A stretch of 40,067 bases of DNA, taken from positions 1 through 40,067 of the forward strand of contig JALRBJ010000006.1 in the NCBI GenBank assembly GCA_023257815.1. Reading direction: 5' to 3'. Under the pieces are notes generated by a model, which was given only the letters and a program-made list of their open reading frames with translations, was not told the DNA's origin and did not search any database. Positions within the stretch are counted from its first letter, which is position 1; each line of letters opens with the position of its first letter. The DNA comes from Candidatus Saccharimonadia bacterium (GTDB taxonomy: Bacteria; Patescibacteriota; Saccharimonadia; Saccharimonadales; Saccharimonadaceae). The position numbers and the translations under genes are program-made. Shown in pieces: positions 5,200 to 17,451 of this stretch.

Positions 5200-5292
5200 T
5201 GGCGGAGAGGGAGGGATTCGAACCCTCGAAACGGGAAAACCGTTTACACGATTTCGAGTCGTGCGCCTTCAACCAGGCTCGGCCACCTCTCC
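5200..5292 (-). tRNA. tRNA-Ser(CGA)
   Basis: A type II tRNA with a long variable arm. The acceptor stem is GGAGAGG/CCTCTCC, the anticodon arm is CACGA-CTCGAAA-TCGTG with anticodon CGA, and the T loop is GTTCGAATC. The discriminator is G and CCA is encoded (5200-5202). It reads UCG codons. Confidence 0.95.
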
Positions 5293-12216: not shown

Positions 12217-12338
12217 TGGTACACCCGACAGGATATTGGCAGGCAAGCTGCCTCCTCCGCTTGTTCGCAAAATGAGTAAACTAATTTTGCTGCACTGCGC
12301 TACGCCGAACCTTGACGGTTCGGATTCGCAAGCGAATC
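12217..12338 (-). repeat. tRNA-downstream repeat, copy 1, ending in a duplicate tRNA-Arg 3' end
   Basis: Read on the minus strand from the tRNA outward, this has hairpin GATTCG-CTTG-CGAATC (12338-12323) and hairpin CGAACC/GGTTCG (12322-12306), then GGCGTAGCG and an A/T-rich stretch. It continues with GCGGAGGA (12260-12253), hairpin GGCAG-CTTG-CCTGCC, ATATCC, and an exact 18-bp copy of the tRNA-Arg 3' end (12234-12217, TGGTACACCCGACAGGAT on the plus strand). The same order of parts follows tRNA-Ser(UGA). Confidence 0.7.
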
Positions 12339-12340
12339 TA

Positions 12341-12378
12341 CCAAGAAAAAAGACCCATCCTTGATGAGTCATTTTTCT
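12341..12378 (-). terminator. Terminator of tRNA-Arg
   Basis: On the minus strand GACTCATC-AAG-GATGGGTC is flanked by an A tract before and TTTTTTCTTGG after. It begins directly after the tRNA CCA. The A/T tracts also pair, so the element could work in both directions. Confidence 0.8.
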
Positions 12379-12455
12379 TGGTACACCCGACAGGATTCGA
12401 ACCTATGGCCTTCGGCTCCGCAAGCCGACGCTCTATCCAGCTGAGCTACGGGTGC
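12379..12455 (-). tRNA. tRNA-Arg(GCG)
   Basis: Acceptor GCACCCG/CGGGTGT, D arm GCTCAGCTGGATAGAGC, anticodon stem-loop TCGGC-TTGCGGA-GCCGA giving anticodon GCG, T arm with GGTTCGAATCC, discriminator A, CCA encoded (12379-12381). The GCG anticodon is unusual: most bacteria read CGU/CGC/CGA with ACG (inosine-modified). Confidence 0.93.
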
Positions 12456-12572
12456 ATAGTGGCACGAATTGGTTACGTGCCCCCAGTGTTGTAACTAGAA
12501 GGTACCTCCGCCTAAAAAAGACGAACAGCGTCAATTGTATCATAACAGGGGTAAAAATGGCAACCGCACAAA

Positions 12573-13109
12573 CTAAATGTGGAGTTTACGAATCAGCTTG
12601 TCAAACACATCAAGCCGCAGTTCCTGCATGGGGATTCGGCTACCTAAGGCATCAACGATTGCTTCACCGTACTCAACAGGAAAGTGCACCGTAAGTGCTG
12701 GCCTAAATCGTTTAGTAGGAATAAGAGTTAAACTTGGAACCGACTCGTCCTTAGCCACACCAAAACTACGGAACTCTGCTAAAGCGTGCAGCTTTTCGTT
12801 TATATACAGCCCCTTTGAGCTAAGGACATAGTTTAATTCTCGCGGCGGACGGTGGGAATACAGCATCAGCGCAGCCGCCATTACCGGCACTAAAATTACG
12901 AAAGAAAGTGATTTAATCACAAGCCCAGCCAGAATCATTATTACTACAACGACTATCCAAAAACCAATAAACCACCAGGGTGAGCGTCGTTCCTGCACGT
13001 ACTCTGGCGCTTGCCATTGAATCAGTTCATCTGTCTGTACAAGGGTAGTTACCTCTGTTTCAGAGTTTTCTTGAGACTCAGACTGAACAGGCAATTGTTC
13101 TGGTTGCAT
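12573..13109 (-). CDS. Hypothetical membrane protein with two adjacent helices
   Basis: This 178-residue protein has an acidic/Gln-rich N-terminal tail of about 40 residues. Two close membrane segments follow (about 45-66 WWFIGFWIVVVVIMILAGLVI and 69-85 FVILVPVMAAALMLY), then a C-terminal cytoplasmic beta/alpha domain (HRPPRELNYVLSSKGLYI, then LHALAEFRSFGV). The arrangement resembles bacterial PH-like membrane proteins, but that is only a fold guess. A TATACT lies 6 bp before the ATG with no ribosome binding site. It is a monogenic unit ending 117 bp from tRNA-Arg. Confidence 0.75.
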   Translation of the reverse strand: MQPEQLPVQSESQENSETEVTTLVQTDELIQWQAPEYVQERRSPWWFIGFWIVVVVIMILAGLVIKSLSFVILVPVMAAALMLYSHRPPRELNYVLSSKGLYINEKLHALAEFRSFGVAKDESVPSLTLIPTKRFRPALTVHFPVEYGEAIVDALGSRIPMQELRLDVFDKLIRKLHI

Positions 13110-13115
13110 GAGGTT

Positions 13116-13121
13116 AGTATA
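13116..13121 (-). promoter_or_regulatory. -10 box TATACT, leaderless promoter of the 12573-13109 gene
   Basis: TATACT on the minus strand ends 6 bp before the ATG (spacer AACCTC). The geometry is identical to the HIT gene promoter. Confidence 0.6.
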
Positions 13122-13136
13122 GCATGAGGAGTATGG

Positions 13137-13156
13137 GTGGAGGAGGGAGATATCCT
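13137..13156 (+). repeat. tRNA-downstream repeat, short copy 4
   Basis: GTGGAGGA followed by GGGAG and ATATCCT matches the core of the repeat family (GYGGAGGA, spacer or hairpin, ATATC). There is no tRNA next to this copy. It lies upstream of the GC-rich orphan gene at 13226, on the opposite strand from copy 2, which lies beyond that gene. Confidence 0.4.
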
Positions 13157-13225
13157 ATTGCATTATTTTGATAAATATAGTATGAATATAAATGCTTCTA
13201 GTCGCGCGATTGATTGGAAAGTCAC

Positions 13226-13582
13226 ATGGAAATGAAAACTCGAACCACAGGACCGGTGCGTAAAATGCATCCGCTCCTGATCATGGCGATCGTGATGGCG
13301 CTGATAACGCTACTCACCCTGGTCATGATGTACGACGCAGCAAGGCTGAGGGACGCCCACACGGTCGAAGGGATCGTGGAGCGGGTTGGCCAGCAAGATG
13401 GCAGCTTCCTCCAAGCAGAAGCAAGGTTCATCAAGCTCGAGGATGGAGACACTGTCTACGAGTGCTGGGTGTCGGATCGGCAAGCCTGCTCGACCTTGGA
13501 ACCGGGTGACTACGTGGTGATGAGGGTGGGACGCAACGATCGTGGAGTCAACAACTTCGTTGGTTCCATCGAGCTGAAGTAA
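13226..13582 (+). CDS. GC-rich orphan small membrane-anchored protein
   Basis: This is 118 residues from ATG 13226, chosen because GGAAAG lies 5 bp upstream; a TTG four codons earlier is possible. The basic N-terminus is followed by a membrane helix (HPLLIMAIVMALITLLTLVMMY, about residues 15-36). A beta-rich outer domain follows (HTVEGIVERVGQQDGSF, then DGDTVYECWVSDRQ, then LEPGDYVVMRVGRNDRG) with two cysteines. I do not recognise the family. Third positions are GC-rich (ATC, GTG, CTC, AAC) unlike neighbouring genes. It is a single-gene unit with its own terminator, flanked by inverted copies of a small repeat. Confidence 0.75.
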   Translation: MEMKTRTTGPVRKMHPLLIMAIVMALITLLTLVMMYDAARLRDAHTVEGIVERVGQQDGSFLQAEARFIKLEDGDTVYECWVSDRQACSTLEPGDYVVMRVGRNDRGVNNFVGSIELK

Positions 13583-13650
13583 CCACCCCCTCAGCTTGGT
13601 ATACAAGTTGACTCCCAGTCCAACGGTCTTATACCTAGACGGGTACGTAT

Positions 13651-13695
13651 GCCTGTCGAGATTGAGTTTGCTCTCTCGGCAGGCTCTTTCTTTTG
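13651..13695 (+). terminator. Intrinsic terminator after the GC-rich gene
   Basis: The 11-bp stem GCCTGTCGAGA/TCTCGGCAGGC (one G-T pair) is followed by TCTTTCTTTTG. Confidence 0.85.
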
Positions 13696-13720
13696 AGCAT
13701 GATATTCATGTGTGAAGGAG

Positions 13721-13763
13721 GGAATATAGCGCTTCACTTTGTTTCGCTCCTCCACTCACTCAC
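13721..13763 (-). repeat. tRNA-downstream repeat, copy 2
   Basis: Minus strand, after the tRNA-Ser(GCU) terminator: TGTGAGTGAGTGGAGGA, then GCG-AAACAAAGTGAA-GCGC in the hairpin position, then TATATTCC. It then reads CTCCTTC, a loose match to the tRNA 3' end. The hairpin pair seen in copies 1 and 3 is missing. Confidence 0.55.
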
Positions 13764-13791
13764 AAAAGAAAAAGAAGCCCGCATGGACTTC
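13764..13791 (-). terminator. Terminator of tRNA-Ser(GCU)
   Basis: Minus strand GAAGTCC-ATGC-GGGCTTC followed by TTTTTCTTTTG. Confidence 0.85.
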
Positions 13792-13799
13792 ATTTTTCT

Positions 13800-13892
13800 T
13801 GGCGGAGGAGGGGAGATTCGAACTCCCGCTACAGATCTCTCCGTACTAACGATTTAGCAAACCGTCCCCTTCAGCCACTTGGGTACTCCTCC
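13800..13892 (-). tRNA. tRNA-Ser(GCU)
   Basis: Type II tRNA. Acceptor GGAGGAG/CTCCTCC, anticodon arm ACGGT-TTGCTAA-ATCGT with anticodon GCT, long variable arm, T loop GTTCGAATC, discriminator G, CCA encoded (13800-13802). It reads AGC/AGU. Confidence 0.95.
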
Positions 13893-14017
13893 GTAGTTGA
13901 GTCTGTGGTGTCACGTAGCAGCCACTTGGGCGCTCAACTAACAAATTGTAGCATAGAACAGGGGCGAACGGTAGACTTTTTATGTCTATTTGTTATATTG
14001 GAACCAGAGGAAACAAT

Positions 14018-14428
14018 ATGATAAAAAACGTTATTCGTACACTTATTCCATCAATTCTTGTAAGCGCACTTTCACTAGCAGTCATGGTTACCCCAATGGT
14101 TGGTGCATTTGACGGCAGCATTCAGGGTGGAGCTGATTCAGCGCGTGGTACCGACCAAACTCCAACCTTGTTTGGGCAAGCTGGTATTTTTAAGACGATT
14201 ACCAACGTACTCCTCTTCATTCTTGGGGCTGTTTCAGTCATCATGATCATCATCGGCGGCTTGCGTTATGTAATTTCGGGTGGTAATTCTACCGCAGTTA
14301 CAGCTGCAAAGAATACGATTCTTTACGCAATCGTAGGCGTTATTGTTGCTCTGCTTGCTTACGCAGTAGTTAACTTTGTACTTGCAAGCTTTGCTACTGG
14401 TGGTGCTACCAGCGGCACAAATGTCTAA
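14018..14428 (+). CDS. VirB2/TrbC-like pilin subunit (isolated copy)
   Basis: This is 136 residues from ATG 14018, chosen because AGAGGAAA lies upstream of it; an earlier in-frame ATG at 13982 lacks a site. It has an N-terminal signal peptide (about residues 9-30) and a short polar region. The pilin core follows: FKTITNVLLFILGAVSVIMIIIGG, the RYVISGGNSTAVTAAKN loop, and a second helix TILYAIVGVIVALLAYAVVNF. These two helices joined by a charged loop are the VirB2/TrbC layout. It is close kin to the pilin operon 2 kb downstream but is transcribed the other way. TATATT at about 13995 is a probable -10. Confidence 0.85.
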   Translation: MIKNVIRTLIPSILVSALSLAVMVTPMVGAFDGSIQGGADSARGTDQTPTLFGQAGIFKTITNVLLFILGAVSVIMIIIGGLRYVISGGNSTAVTAAKNTILYAIVGVIVALLAYAVVNFVLASFATGGATSGTNV

Positions 14429-14476
14429 ATATACTTGATTCTTTGCTCCTACCTCTGTTAGAATAAGTCCTTGTAC

Positions 14477-14564
14477 GGAGAGGTGACCGAGTGGTTTAAG
14501 GTACTTGTCTTGAAAACAAGCGTGGGGCAACTCACCGCGAGTTCGAATCTCGCCCTCTCCGCCA
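14477..14564 (+). tRNA. tRNA-Ser(UGA)
   Basis: Type II tRNA. Acceptor GGAGAGG/CCTCTCC, anticodon arm CTTGT-CTTGAAA-ACAAG with anticodon TGA, variable arm, T loop GTTCGAATC, discriminator G, CCA encoded (14562-14564). Confidence 0.95.
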
Positions 14565-14599
14565 AATAAAGATGACCCGAAAGGGTCGTTTTTATTTGG
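14565..14599 (+). terminator. Terminator of tRNA-Ser(UGA)
   Basis: GACCC-GAAA-GGGTC (14574-14587) is followed by GTTTTTATTTGG. The flanking AAATAAA and TTTATTT also pair, so it can act on both strands. Confidence 0.85.
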
Positions 14600-14629
14600 C
14601 GGAACATGGCGGTGATTTGTACTCGCGGG

Positions 14630-14738
14630 CATTGCAAAGCAATGCGAACCGCGAAGTTCGGCGTAGCGAATGAAACAAAAGGAAGCGCGTAGCATTTTCT
14701 TTTGTGAATGAGCGGAGGAAGCTGAAGGCTGATATCTT
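14630..14738 (+). repeat. tRNA-downstream repeat, copy 3
   Basis: Plus strand: hairpin CATTGC-AAA-GCAATG, hairpin CGAAC/GTTCG (14645-14660), GGCGTAGCG, the A-rich GAATGAAACAAAAGG, TTTTGTGAATGAGCGGAGGA (to 14719), short hairpin AGC-TGAA-GGCT, and ATATC (14732-14736). This is the same part order as copy 1 with different hairpin sequences, which argues for conserved structure. Confidence 0.7.
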
Positions 14739-14746
14739 ACCCTAAA

Positions 14747-15430
14747 CTATTTCTTCAACTCCTGCCGCGCCACCACTCCAACCCAAACCGTATCAGCACC
14801 CGCATCTCGCAGCGTTTGCGCGCAATACTTTAGTGTGGCATTTGTAGTAACAATATCATCAACTATAAGGTATGGAGTTTGGTCTAGGTCCTGAAGGCAG
14901 TAGTACGCTGACTCCGCATGACCAAACCGCTGCTGTCTGGTTAACCCGCGCTGGGCTATTTTGTCGCGTCGTAATATAAGCTGTTTAGCTGTTAGGCCGC
15001 GCAGCTTTGCAAGTTGCTTCGCAATAAGAAGCGTATGGTCATATCCGCGCTGTCTAACATGTCTATGAATTGTAGGCACAGGCACAATGACAGTATTAGC
15101 AGGTAGAACTGGCAACCGCTCATTCAATAAAAATGCAAGACTATCAGCAGCACCCCTAACTCGCTCGAATTTATATGCGTCAATTAAACGTTGCAAACTA
15201 TCGATTCTATCGCCTACGCACCAAGCTTTTTGATAGGTCGTTTTATGGTTGCTACAGATTCCGTTCGGAGTTGGCACACGGCATACTAAACAAGCATCAA
15301 TTGCCTCATCGACGATGTCATATTTACAATTTTCACACAAAACATAACCACTTTTTTGACACCCATAACAGTGGTGTGGAGCCACTATTCCAAGCAGTTG
15401 ATCAATCATTGTACTTTTTACGTTTAACAC
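14747..15430 (-). CDS. comF: ComF family phosphoribosyltransferase-like protein
   Basis: This 227-residue protein has an N-terminal zinc ribbon (C21-x2-C24, C32-x2-C35, then C47-x2-C50 and C59). A type I phosphoribosyltransferase domain follows, with PVPTIHRHVRQRGYDH and the PRPP-binding LIVDDIVTTNATL (188-200). ComF proteins are cytoplasmic and are needed for natural transformation in several bacteria, probably acting on incoming single-stranded DNA. Its place between VirB2-like pilin genes is suggestive of DNA handling. The start is GTG at 15430 with GAAGG directly before it; ATG 15409 is an alternative. A TATAAT lies at 15449-15444. Confidence 0.9.
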   Translation of the reverse strand: MLNVKSTMIDQLLGIVAPHHCYGCQKSGYVLCENCKYDIVDEAIDACLVCRVPTPNGICSNHKTTYQKAWCVGDRIDSLQRLIDAYKFERVRGAADSLAFLLNERLPVLPANTVIVPVPTIHRHVRQRGYDHTLLIAKQLAKLRGLTAKQLILRRDKIAQRGLTRQQRFGHAESAYYCLQDLDQTPYLIVDDIVTTNATLKYCAQTLRDAGADTVWVGVVARQELKK

Positions 15431-16109: not shown

Positions 16110-16526
16110 TTAGCTCTGGACGAAGCTTGAAAGTACAAAGTTAACTACTGCATAGGCAAGTAGGGAAACAATGATACCGATAACTGCATAAAGGATGGTG
16201 TTTTTGGCGCTGGTAATTGCCGTGCTATCACCCTGTGAAATTGTGTAGCGAATACCGCCGATGATAAGCATAATCACCGAGACTGCACCTACAAGGAATA
16301 ATAGGACATTGGTAATGGTCTTAAAAATTCCATCACCACCACATTCACCACCACCAAATAGACATGGGCTTTGGCCTTCACCCTTAGCAGAGCCAGCACC
16401 GTCGGTAATTGATTGATCAAACGCCTGAGCTGGCTGAGCAACCGAAACGGTAGCAAGACCAACTGTTAGGCCAAGCACTGGTACAATCAGTAGGCCACGT
16501 AGCGCATTCATAATAGTTTTTTTCAT
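16110..16526 (-). CDS. VirB2/TrbC-like pilin subunit, pilin operon gene 5
   Basis: This 138-residue protein has a signal peptide (MKKTIMNALRG, hydrophobic core, VAQPAQAFD cleavage-like site near residue 36). A short Gly/Cys-rich mature N-terminus follows (SPCLFGGGECGGDG). The pilin core is FKTITNVLLFLVGAVSVIMLIIGG, loop RYTISQGDSTAITSAKN, and TILYAVIGIIVSLLAYAVVNF. The only cysteine pair is in the mature N-terminus and could form a disulfide. AAAGGAA is the ribosome binding site. It is separated by 72 bp from the upstream pilin gene and may also have its own promoter. Last gene before the bidirectional terminator. Confidence 0.85.
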   Translation of the reverse strand: MKKTIMNALRGLLIVPVLGLTVGLATVSVAQPAQAFDQSITDGAGSAKGEGQSPCLFGGGECGGDGIFKTITNVLLFLVGAVSVIMLIIGGIRYTISQGDSTAITSAKNTILYAVIGIIVSLLAYAVVNFVLSSFVQS

Positions 16527-16598
16527 TCTTATATATTCCTTTCTAGGTAATCTTGTTTTCTGTTATATCAGATATAGGGGGGTTTGTTAAGCCCCGAA

Positions 16599-17048
16599 CT
16601 AGTTAGTTGCCGCGCTGTCGCCGGTGCTATCATTCGTAAACGAATCTGTTATGAAATTTACGATCGCATAGGCCAATAGTGCAACAATCAATCCTATCAC
16701 TGAATACAGAATAGTATTCTTGGCACTGGTAATCTGTGAAGAATCACCATTTGATATAACGTAGCGAATACCGCCAATGATGATCATGATGACGGCAACT
16801 GCACCAAGAATAAACAGTAGAACATTACTCACCGTTCGAATCACGCTATTCTCACCACCAACTAAATTGGTCTTTGTGCCTTTGCCCTTGGCACATTTGG
16901 CGCCAGATTTTACTGATATGTTCGTATCGCTACAGGCATCAGAAGTTTCTGCGTGTGCAGCAGTACCGGATAGTACGGTTAAGAAAGCTGCAGCGGCCAG
17001 TGGAAGTACCATCAGCCCCATGATTAATTTCTTTAGTGGTTGTTTCAT
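16599..17048 (-). CDS. VirB2/TrbC-like pilin subunit, pilin operon gene 4
   Basis: This 149-residue protein has a signal peptide up to about residue 33 (TVLSGTAAHAETSD) and a mature N-terminus with two Cys (SDACSD, SGAKCAKG). The pilin core is VIRTVSNVLLFILGAVAVIMII, loop RYVISNGDSSQITSAKN, and TILYSVIGLIVALLAYAIVNF, with a polar C-terminal tail. GGAGAG precedes the ATG. It contains a 38-bp segment identical to the next upstream pilin gene, so these two are recent duplicates or share sequence by gene conversion. Confidence 0.85.
   Translation of the reverse strand: MKQPLKKLIMGLMVLPLAAAAFLTVLSGTAAHAETSDACSDTNISVKSGAKCAKGKGTKTNLVGGENSVIRTVSNVLLFILGAVAVIMIIIGGIRYVISNGDSSQITSAKNTILYSVIGLIVALLAYAIVNFITDSFTNDSTGDSAATN
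16693..16730. repeat. 38-bp direct repeat, copy A (inside pilin gene 4)
   Basis: Identical to 17135-17172 over 38 bp. It encodes the conserved SAKNTILYSVIG segment. Flanking bases differ at once on both sides. Confidence 0.9.
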
Positions 17049-17070
17049 ATTCTCTCCGTTATTCCTATGG

Positions 17071-17451
17071 TTAATTCACAAACTGATTTATTATAAAGTT
17101 CACTAATGCAAACGCTAGCAAAGCTATAATCAAGCCTATCACTGAATACAGAATAGTATTCTTGGCACTGGTGATTCGTGATGAGTCACCATCCGAGGTA
17201 ACATAGCGAATACCGCCGATGATGATCATGACAACAGCAATCGTACCTACCGCAAACAGTAAAATATTAATAACTGTCTGAATCAATGGATTAATAGAAT
17301 CGGACTTAGCCTTACATACCTCGGCATTATTGTTACCCTTACAGGCACCATCAAATACATTAATCGCACCGGCCGAAACAGGCACCATCGTGCTGCTAAC
17401 ACCAAGCAGCAAACCTAGAATAATCGCAAATCTTTTTACTCGCTGTTTCAT
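17071..17451 (-). CDS. VirB2/TrbC-like pilin subunit, pilin operon gene 3
   Basis: This 126-residue protein is the shortest of the set. It has a signal peptide (MKQRVKRFAIILGLLLGVSS, probable cleavage after VSAGA) and a short mature N-terminus with two Cys (GACKGNNNAEVCKAK). The pilin core is PLIQTVINILLFAVGTIAVVMII, loop RYVTSDGDSSRITSAKN, and TILYSVIGLIIALLAFALVNF. It lies 7 bp after the two-unit pilin gene and 22 bp before gene 4, so they are co-transcribed. The charged loop is where VirB2 pilins face the cytoplasm or lumen. Confidence 0.85.
   Translation of the reverse strand: MKQRVKRFAIILGLLLGVSSTMVPVSAGAINVFDGACKGNNNAEVCKAKSDSINPLIQTVINILLFAVGTIAVVMIIIGGIRYVTSDGDSSRITSAKNTILYSVIGLIIALLAFALVNFIINQFVN
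17135..17172. repeat. 38-bp direct repeat, copy B (inside pilin gene 3)
   Basis: Exact match of 16693-16730 in the neighbouring pilin gene. Confidence 0.9.

Follow-up and report, generated by a model that had tools for sequence, protein, structure and literature searches.

Folded modules behind tRNA genes of Saccharibacteria form a family of putative miniature mobile elements with tRNA-matched arms

We analysed a stretch of 40,067 nt from a Candidatus Saccharimonadia bacterium (GenBank assembly GCA_023257815.1, contig JALRBJ010000006.1, positions 1 to 40,067; the whole stretch is called the window below), and we found that it carries copies of a folded module of about 130-190 bp just downstream of tRNA genes. 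We lean, with some reserve, towards reading these modules as a non-autonomous family of miniature mobile elements of Saccharibacteria (class Saccharimonadia), whose core moves into the T-loops of tRNAs. The statistics of the direct repeat, the T-arm, the inverted copy and the core hairpin given below established the full order of the element, which begins with the 3' half of the tRNA and the terminator, continues with a degenerate, inverted version of this 3' half, a hairpin and a forward T-arm strand up to TTCG, and finishes with the core and a repeat of the tRNA stretch that runs from T-loop to CCA. With a length of about 65-85 nt, the core is a hairpin that reads GCGTAGCG...GAGCGGAGGA...GCGAT.

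A covariance model, R1, was built from seven copies, of which two lie in the window and five at related loci, and its E-values are rough. Since both full modules of the window were in the training set, their own scores are not independent, and the independent support comes from the matches in other genomes. R1 matched 64 of the 197 genomes of the order (Saccharimonadales), with up to 11 matches per genome. In a phylum-wide draw of 332 genomes, five copies were found outside the order, all in a single genome from a different order of the class, where the three loci that were checked all lay behind tRNAs, and one further weak match was found elsewhere, without a tRNA. When named genomes were scanned separately, six matches turned up; the five in Candidatus Saccharibacteria were all confirmed by the model, and the sixth, on a short contig labelled Actinomycetes, was not. 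Among the 126 R1 matches with context, 96 followed a tRNA of the same strand, with tRNAs for 15 amino acids represented, and nearly all those adjacent to the tRNA lay 62-106 nt from it; by our estimate less than one such match was expected by chance. For most of the remaining matches, a tRNA whose 3' end matched the repeat lay 0.7-15 kb upstream, with genes in between. Copies were present in single-contig genomes too, so the family is no assembly artefact. The preliminary description of the window, which had suggested a mobile palindromic element aimed at tRNA ends, had named a lack of further genome matches, of a tRNA link or of compensatory changes as what would speak against it; the first two are now seen to exist, and the third is treated below. 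Simpler searches were less useful: a DNA search of the window's own genome with the whole segment returned mainly other tRNAs, and most short-motif matches in other genomes lay within genes and were due to chance. Congeneric species (L312, L320, L324, L325) have a second core type (AGAAGCCTGTCAAATC...TTTAGCYGATGG), which occupies the same positions at tRNA-Ser genes and lies outside R1. No published description of the element was found in the open-access literature, which does not prove that there is none.

The arms of the element match the tRNA behind which it lies. At its end the element repeats the last 17 nt of its host tRNA, with 16-17 of 17 positions identical in 34 of the 96 matches, compared with a mean of 1.3 and a maximum of 5 in 200 shuffles of the tRNAs. 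An 18-nt tRNA-end repeat, which closes the first module of the window, was also found at the tRNA-Gln(TTG) and tRNA-Arg(TCG) copies of the same genome, and at tRNA-Arg(TCG) of a more distant genome. The 5' strand of the T-arm, in front of the junction between TTCG and GCGTAGCG, matched the host tRNA at 6.12 of 10 positions (shuffled 4.75, maximum 5.13). The reverse-complement copy of the tRNA 3' half, which lies between terminator and hairpin, reached a local score of 24.5 (shuffled 16.2, maximum 17.3), and the best of these copies was identical to its own tRNA at 34 of 35 positions; the shuffled-tRNA controls leave shared ancestry among the matches in place. In the core hairpin we counted 152 double changes against 45.7 in shuffled data, with a covariation score of 0.519 against 0.208 and at most 0.206 in slid controls, so the compensatory changes described earlier for the hairpins were recovered at family scale.

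Empty and filled sites could be compared at tRNA-Arg(TCG) of the genus. In the congeners G001, G002, G003, G006, G008, G011 and G013 the site was empty and a gene stood directly behind the tRNA, and in G000 and G004 roughly 150 bp separated the tRNA from a repeat of its last 18 nt (in G000, 25 nt), with the same gene behind this repeat. Only the left part of the element was present in G007, G009 and G012. Behind the window's three module-bearing tRNAs, congeners had modules with different core types, remnants, or nothing. The mean core similarity was 0.66 between different tRNAs within a genome, 0.58 at the same tRNA across genomes, and 0.57 in the background, and cores that were 91-96% identical were found at Ser/Arg and Ser/Leu tRNAs within one genome. 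The closest pair (Ser and Arg of G069) had 96% core identity, whereas its flanks had 0.51 and 0.50 against a background of 0.52 and 0.51, and over the 18 closest pairs the means were 0.80 for the core, 0.58 for the upstream flank and 0.52 for the downstream flank. These values suggest that the core is the travelling part, and we infer that the arms are taken from the target tRNA. Together with the tRNA linkage and the 18-nt repeats, the empty sites and the cores common to different tRNAs lend good support to the mobile palindromic element of the preliminary description.

As we picture the insertion, the core would land in the T-loop of the tRNA 3' end, between TTCG and ATC. The tRNA remains intact after insertion, because its final 18 nt (T-loop to CCA) occur both at the end of the tRNA itself, which they complete, and again behind the core. 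The inverted copy of the tRNA 3' half and the forward copy of its T-arm strand agree with the local tRNA, so the target probably served as their template while the core was inserted or afterwards. Mobilisation would take place in trans with recognition of the folded strand, and the inverted copy may be made by snap-back copying. It is conceivable, though we put it forward only tentatively, that nothing but the folded strand of ~70 nt, possibly as RNA, travels, and that the flanks are built anew on the target tRNA as template, in one inverted and one forward copy; we know of no target-templated insertion of such kind in bacteria. On our preferred reading the family is a miniature tRNA-targeted mobile element, and there is a real chance that its mechanism is new.

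Several points weigh against a mobile family. No mobilising enzyme was identified among the tyrosine recombinases, serine recombinases and Y1 transposases examined. Tyrosine recombinases were almost always single and Xer-like, in copy-rich genomes as well, and a tyrosine integrase was rejected as mover because most genomes hold only this one gene. With the threshold applied, some copy-rich genomes such as G180 had neither serine recombinases nor Y1 transposases. Movement between strains was not observed, and an element with fixed ends would not be expected to have arms that fit the local tRNA at each site. Orthologous tRNAs within the genus bear several different core types, which means that ordinary local decay and remodelling also contribute.

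Large serine recombinases (LSRs) were first favoured as the mover. LSR genes were found in 114 of the 197 genomes and more often in genomes with the element (44/64) than in the others (70/133, p 0.045), and several cargo islands open with an LSR gene that runs into the tRNA. The modules could then be minimal att remnants or cis-mobilizable satellites of LSR islands at tRNA ends, with the island mostly lost and its ends mobile in trans, which we regard as possible but rather unlikely. LSRs convergent on tRNA 3' ends, both in module-bounded islands and at other places in the order, would fit such an origin, and so would the Dehalococcoides ssrA precedent with its 20-bp repeat, T-loop insertion, integrase overlapping the tmRNA and accreted cis-mobilizable units (PMC3146451). 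However, the LSR islands sit between the tRNA and the module, and their right ends have only about 7-9 acceptor nt in common with the tRNA, beside a conserved AGTTCTAACTTCATCC-like motif. Ten other LSR regions had neither an 18-nt nor a 12-nt tRNA-end repeat downstream within the stretch examined, and LSR genes were absent from 20 of the 64 element genomes, including several element-rich ones such as G180 and G193. The short overlap and the lack of a repeat in the ten regions weakened the case for the LSR, so in our view the islands and the modules use the same tRNA sites separately. In their own right, LSRs that converge on and overlap tRNA 3' ends (L212 13389-14993, L215 6682-8280, L217 3975-5612, L219 7900-9465) are apparently a widespread tRNA-targeting integrase group in Saccharibacteria.

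Transposases of the type associated with repetitive extragenic palindromes (REP), the Y1/RAYT genes, were also more frequent in element genomes (28/64 versus 22/133, p 9e-5, not corrected for phylogeny). The RAYT genes examined were flanked by other palindromes, and they were therefore rejected as the mover; neither LSR islands nor REP-type transposases are convincing in that role. RAYT-like Y1 transposase genes at L267, L272, L276 and L277 lie between short perfect palindromes (e.g. TCCAAGACCTGGTCTTGGA) and form a separate REP-like system. A phage vehicle was considered too, and it was dropped: 40 viral contigs contained the 15-mer, which is about chance by estimate, and their R1 matches were weak and partial.

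Elements also bracket cargo genes. At a tRNA-Met of G180 (L107 1240-10200, G180:C15), three elements form an array with a tRNA-Met end after each, and between them lie a 3-kb membrane-protein unit (Bax inhibitor-1 like) and a 5.4-kb unit with type I restriction-modification genes. Another array carries metal-related genes. In G123 (L130 1530-4741, G123:C23), about 8 kb from the matching tRNA-Arg(GCG), two elements bracket genes for a CsoR-like regulator, DUF4396, DUF3105, DUF305 and a cytochrome b5-like protein. Another island, at a tRNA-Ser(CGA) (L216 1-4000, G185:C1), has the terminator segment at its ends in inverted copies, as though the palindromes had recombined.

The modules may also have arisen with no transposase at all, by repeated template switching during replication at the quasi-palindromes of tRNA and terminator, which would yield direct-inverted-direct triplications re-templated from the adjacent tRNA and leave the core as an old passenger. 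The succession of forward, inverted and forward tRNA 3' halves with a hairpin at each junction, the closeness of the best inverted copy to its own tRNA, and some congeners that retain the inverted copy only are all in keeping with it. We nevertheless find it unlikely, because a common core consensus recurs at >100 loci and is confined to one class, the same core stands at different tRNAs of one genome between unrelated flanks, and the core has compensatory changes. A functional structured RNA, or a tRNA 3' trailer from readthrough or processing of the tRNA transcript, is very improbable: the modules fold strongly (modules 1 and 3 of the window far below dinucleotide shuffles, z -5.7 and -4.7) and covary around apical loops which, read on the tRNA-sense strand, are CTTG or TTTA in most cases, CUUG being a classic RNA tetraloop, but a terminator stands between tRNA and element, close relatives have a degraded element or none behind the corresponding tRNA, and no Rfam family reached its threshold (IMES-2 21-23 bits, 54.7 needed). 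Only tRNAs were above threshold in the Rfam scan of the window; the IMES-2 similarity at 14562-14678 (21.4 bits) is probably chance, and an sX4 similarity was likewise below the Rfam threshold.

With the core-mobile element as our preferred reading, the copies of the window can be described part by part. ARAGORN placed four tRNA genes in the window, for Arg(GCG), Ser(GCT), Ser(TGA) and Ser(CGA), and the last of these (5200-5292) has no module behind it. Repeats had been described behind tRNA-Arg(GCG) and tRNA-Ser(TGA), in the orientation of the tRNA and after its terminator hairpin, and the tRNA positions and R1 matches agree with this; the order of parts given for these two copies can likewise be read in the sequence.

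Module 1 lies on the minus strand behind tRNA-Arg(GCG) (12379-12455), in which the final 18 nt (12379-12396) form the first of the two direct-repeat copies. A terminator-like palindrome from the tRNA CCA to TGG follows at 12339-12383 (inverted repeat I10, 90%). The small hairpin and the CGAACC/GGTTCG hairpin at 12306-12338 were identified from the sequence together with the family statistics, and they are the remnant of the inverted tRNA copy (R) plus the forward T-arm 5' strand (F2'), with TTCG at the end. The CGAAC/GTTCG hairpin noted earlier is therefore present, and we now read it as the T-arm strand of the local tRNA facing its own inverted copy. The core at 12235-12305, from GCGTAGCG to GCCAAT, was matched by R1 as a training sequence (72.6 bits, E 1.9e-15, 12231-12311 on the minus strand). 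The module is closed at 12217-12234 by an 18-bp direct repeat, ATCCTGTCGGGTGTACCA, identical to the 3' end of tRNA-Arg(GCG), which spans T-loop to CCA, equals 12379-12396, agrees with the family statistics and had been overlooked.

Module 3 lies on the plus strand behind tRNA-Ser(TGA) (14477-14564). Its terminator palindrome (14558-14603; inverted repeat I11, 90%) is followed by R, a degenerate reverse-complement copy of the tRNA 3' half (14597-14628; sequence and family statistic), by the predicted hairpin H, GCATTGC AAA GCAATGC (14629-14645), and by F2', the forward T-arm 5' strand GAACCGCGAAGTTCG (14646-14660; family statistic). The core, GCGTAGCG...GGCTGAT, lies at 14661-14733, where the hairpin covaries and R1, again with a training sequence, gave 52.4 bits (E 8.6e-11, 14655-14737 on the plus strand). 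A decayed second copy of the tRNA-Ser 3' end, ATCTTACCC..., follows at 14734-14751, in the same position as in the family.

Module 2, at 13711-13799 on the minus strand behind tRNA-Ser(GCT) (13800-13892, minus strand), belongs to the family (R1 18 bits, E 0.007, 13726-13795 on the minus strand), and it is truncated and decayed. It consists of a terminator fused to the right half of the core and then a decayed tRNA-end copy ATATTCCCTCC, and it has 25 nt in common with module 3 at 92% identity (repeat I5). The short fourth copy reported at 13137 did not hold up (13136-13155, plus strand; R1 6.4 bits, E 3.4, non-significant), and the sequence there, GGTGGAGGAGGGAGAT, resembles the tRNA-Ser(GCT) 3' end in reverse complement, so three of the four copies of the supposed family stand. 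Between this inverted remnant and tRNA-Ser(GCT) lies a small GC-rich ORF (13226-13582, about 0.55-0.59), which is likely of foreign origin, the GC content of its surroundings being about 0.40-0.50. Further along, 14182-14391 and 16116-17285 are inverted, diverged repeats (64-76%) that resemble a small paralogous family of membrane-protein genes.

If our reading is true, the family supplies insertions, arrays and cargo to tRNA genes across the clade and had not been described before; its hosts are ultra-small episymbionts with few known mobile elements. The element would mark hot spots at which restriction-modification genes and metal-related genes are inserted, and it provides exact, testable site sequences. 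Its tRNA-matched arms pose the question of how an element gains its target sequence, inverted and forward alike.

We compared the element with known systems of small or tRNA-integrated DNA. Integron attC sites are also hairpin sites at unit ends, with units arrayed behind one attachment point, but the element has GTTCGGC as its consensus (by eye) instead of the GTTRRRY / RYYYAAC core, and no integron-type integrase expansion was seen in the genomes surveyed for tyrosine recombinases. Terminal inverted repeats, as in a miniature inverted-repeat transposable element, were not seen by eye, and no search for a DDE transposase was made. REP/REPIN sequences with RAYT are small, palindromic, non-coding and moved in trans as well, and RAYT-type genes occur in Saccharibacteria genomes; unlike the element, they have no tRNA targeting and no 18-nt repeat, and the RAYT genes that were examined carry other palindromes, the element's palindrome not being found around them. 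T-loop tRNA islands with tyrosine integrases (Islander, PMC4383910; phage Ms6, PMC1762012) restore the tRNA and leave the displaced 3' fragment at the far end. The element has this direct repeat of the tRNA 3' end at its far boundary, but it is only about 150 bp long, uses many tRNA types per genome and has no integrase gene, for which modules of about 130-190 bp have no room. The nearest precedent is the Dehalococcoides ssrA islands (DsiB), in which a CcrB-like serine recombinase overlaps attL and cis-mobilizable units are inserted in the T-loop with a 20-bp repeat (PMC3146451). T-loop insertion, a repeat of about 20 bp of the RNA gene's 3' end (18 nt in the element), tandem arrays and integrase-less units are common to both; the ssrA islands differ in their single target gene, kilobase cargo and encoded integrase, and a CcrB-like LSR overlapping attL is found in the neighbouring cargo islands and not in the modules. 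An inverted tRNA copy, a hairpin core and tRNA-matched arms are not reported for the ssrA islands, and these three features of the element set it apart from ssrA islands, T-loop phage and Islander islands alike.

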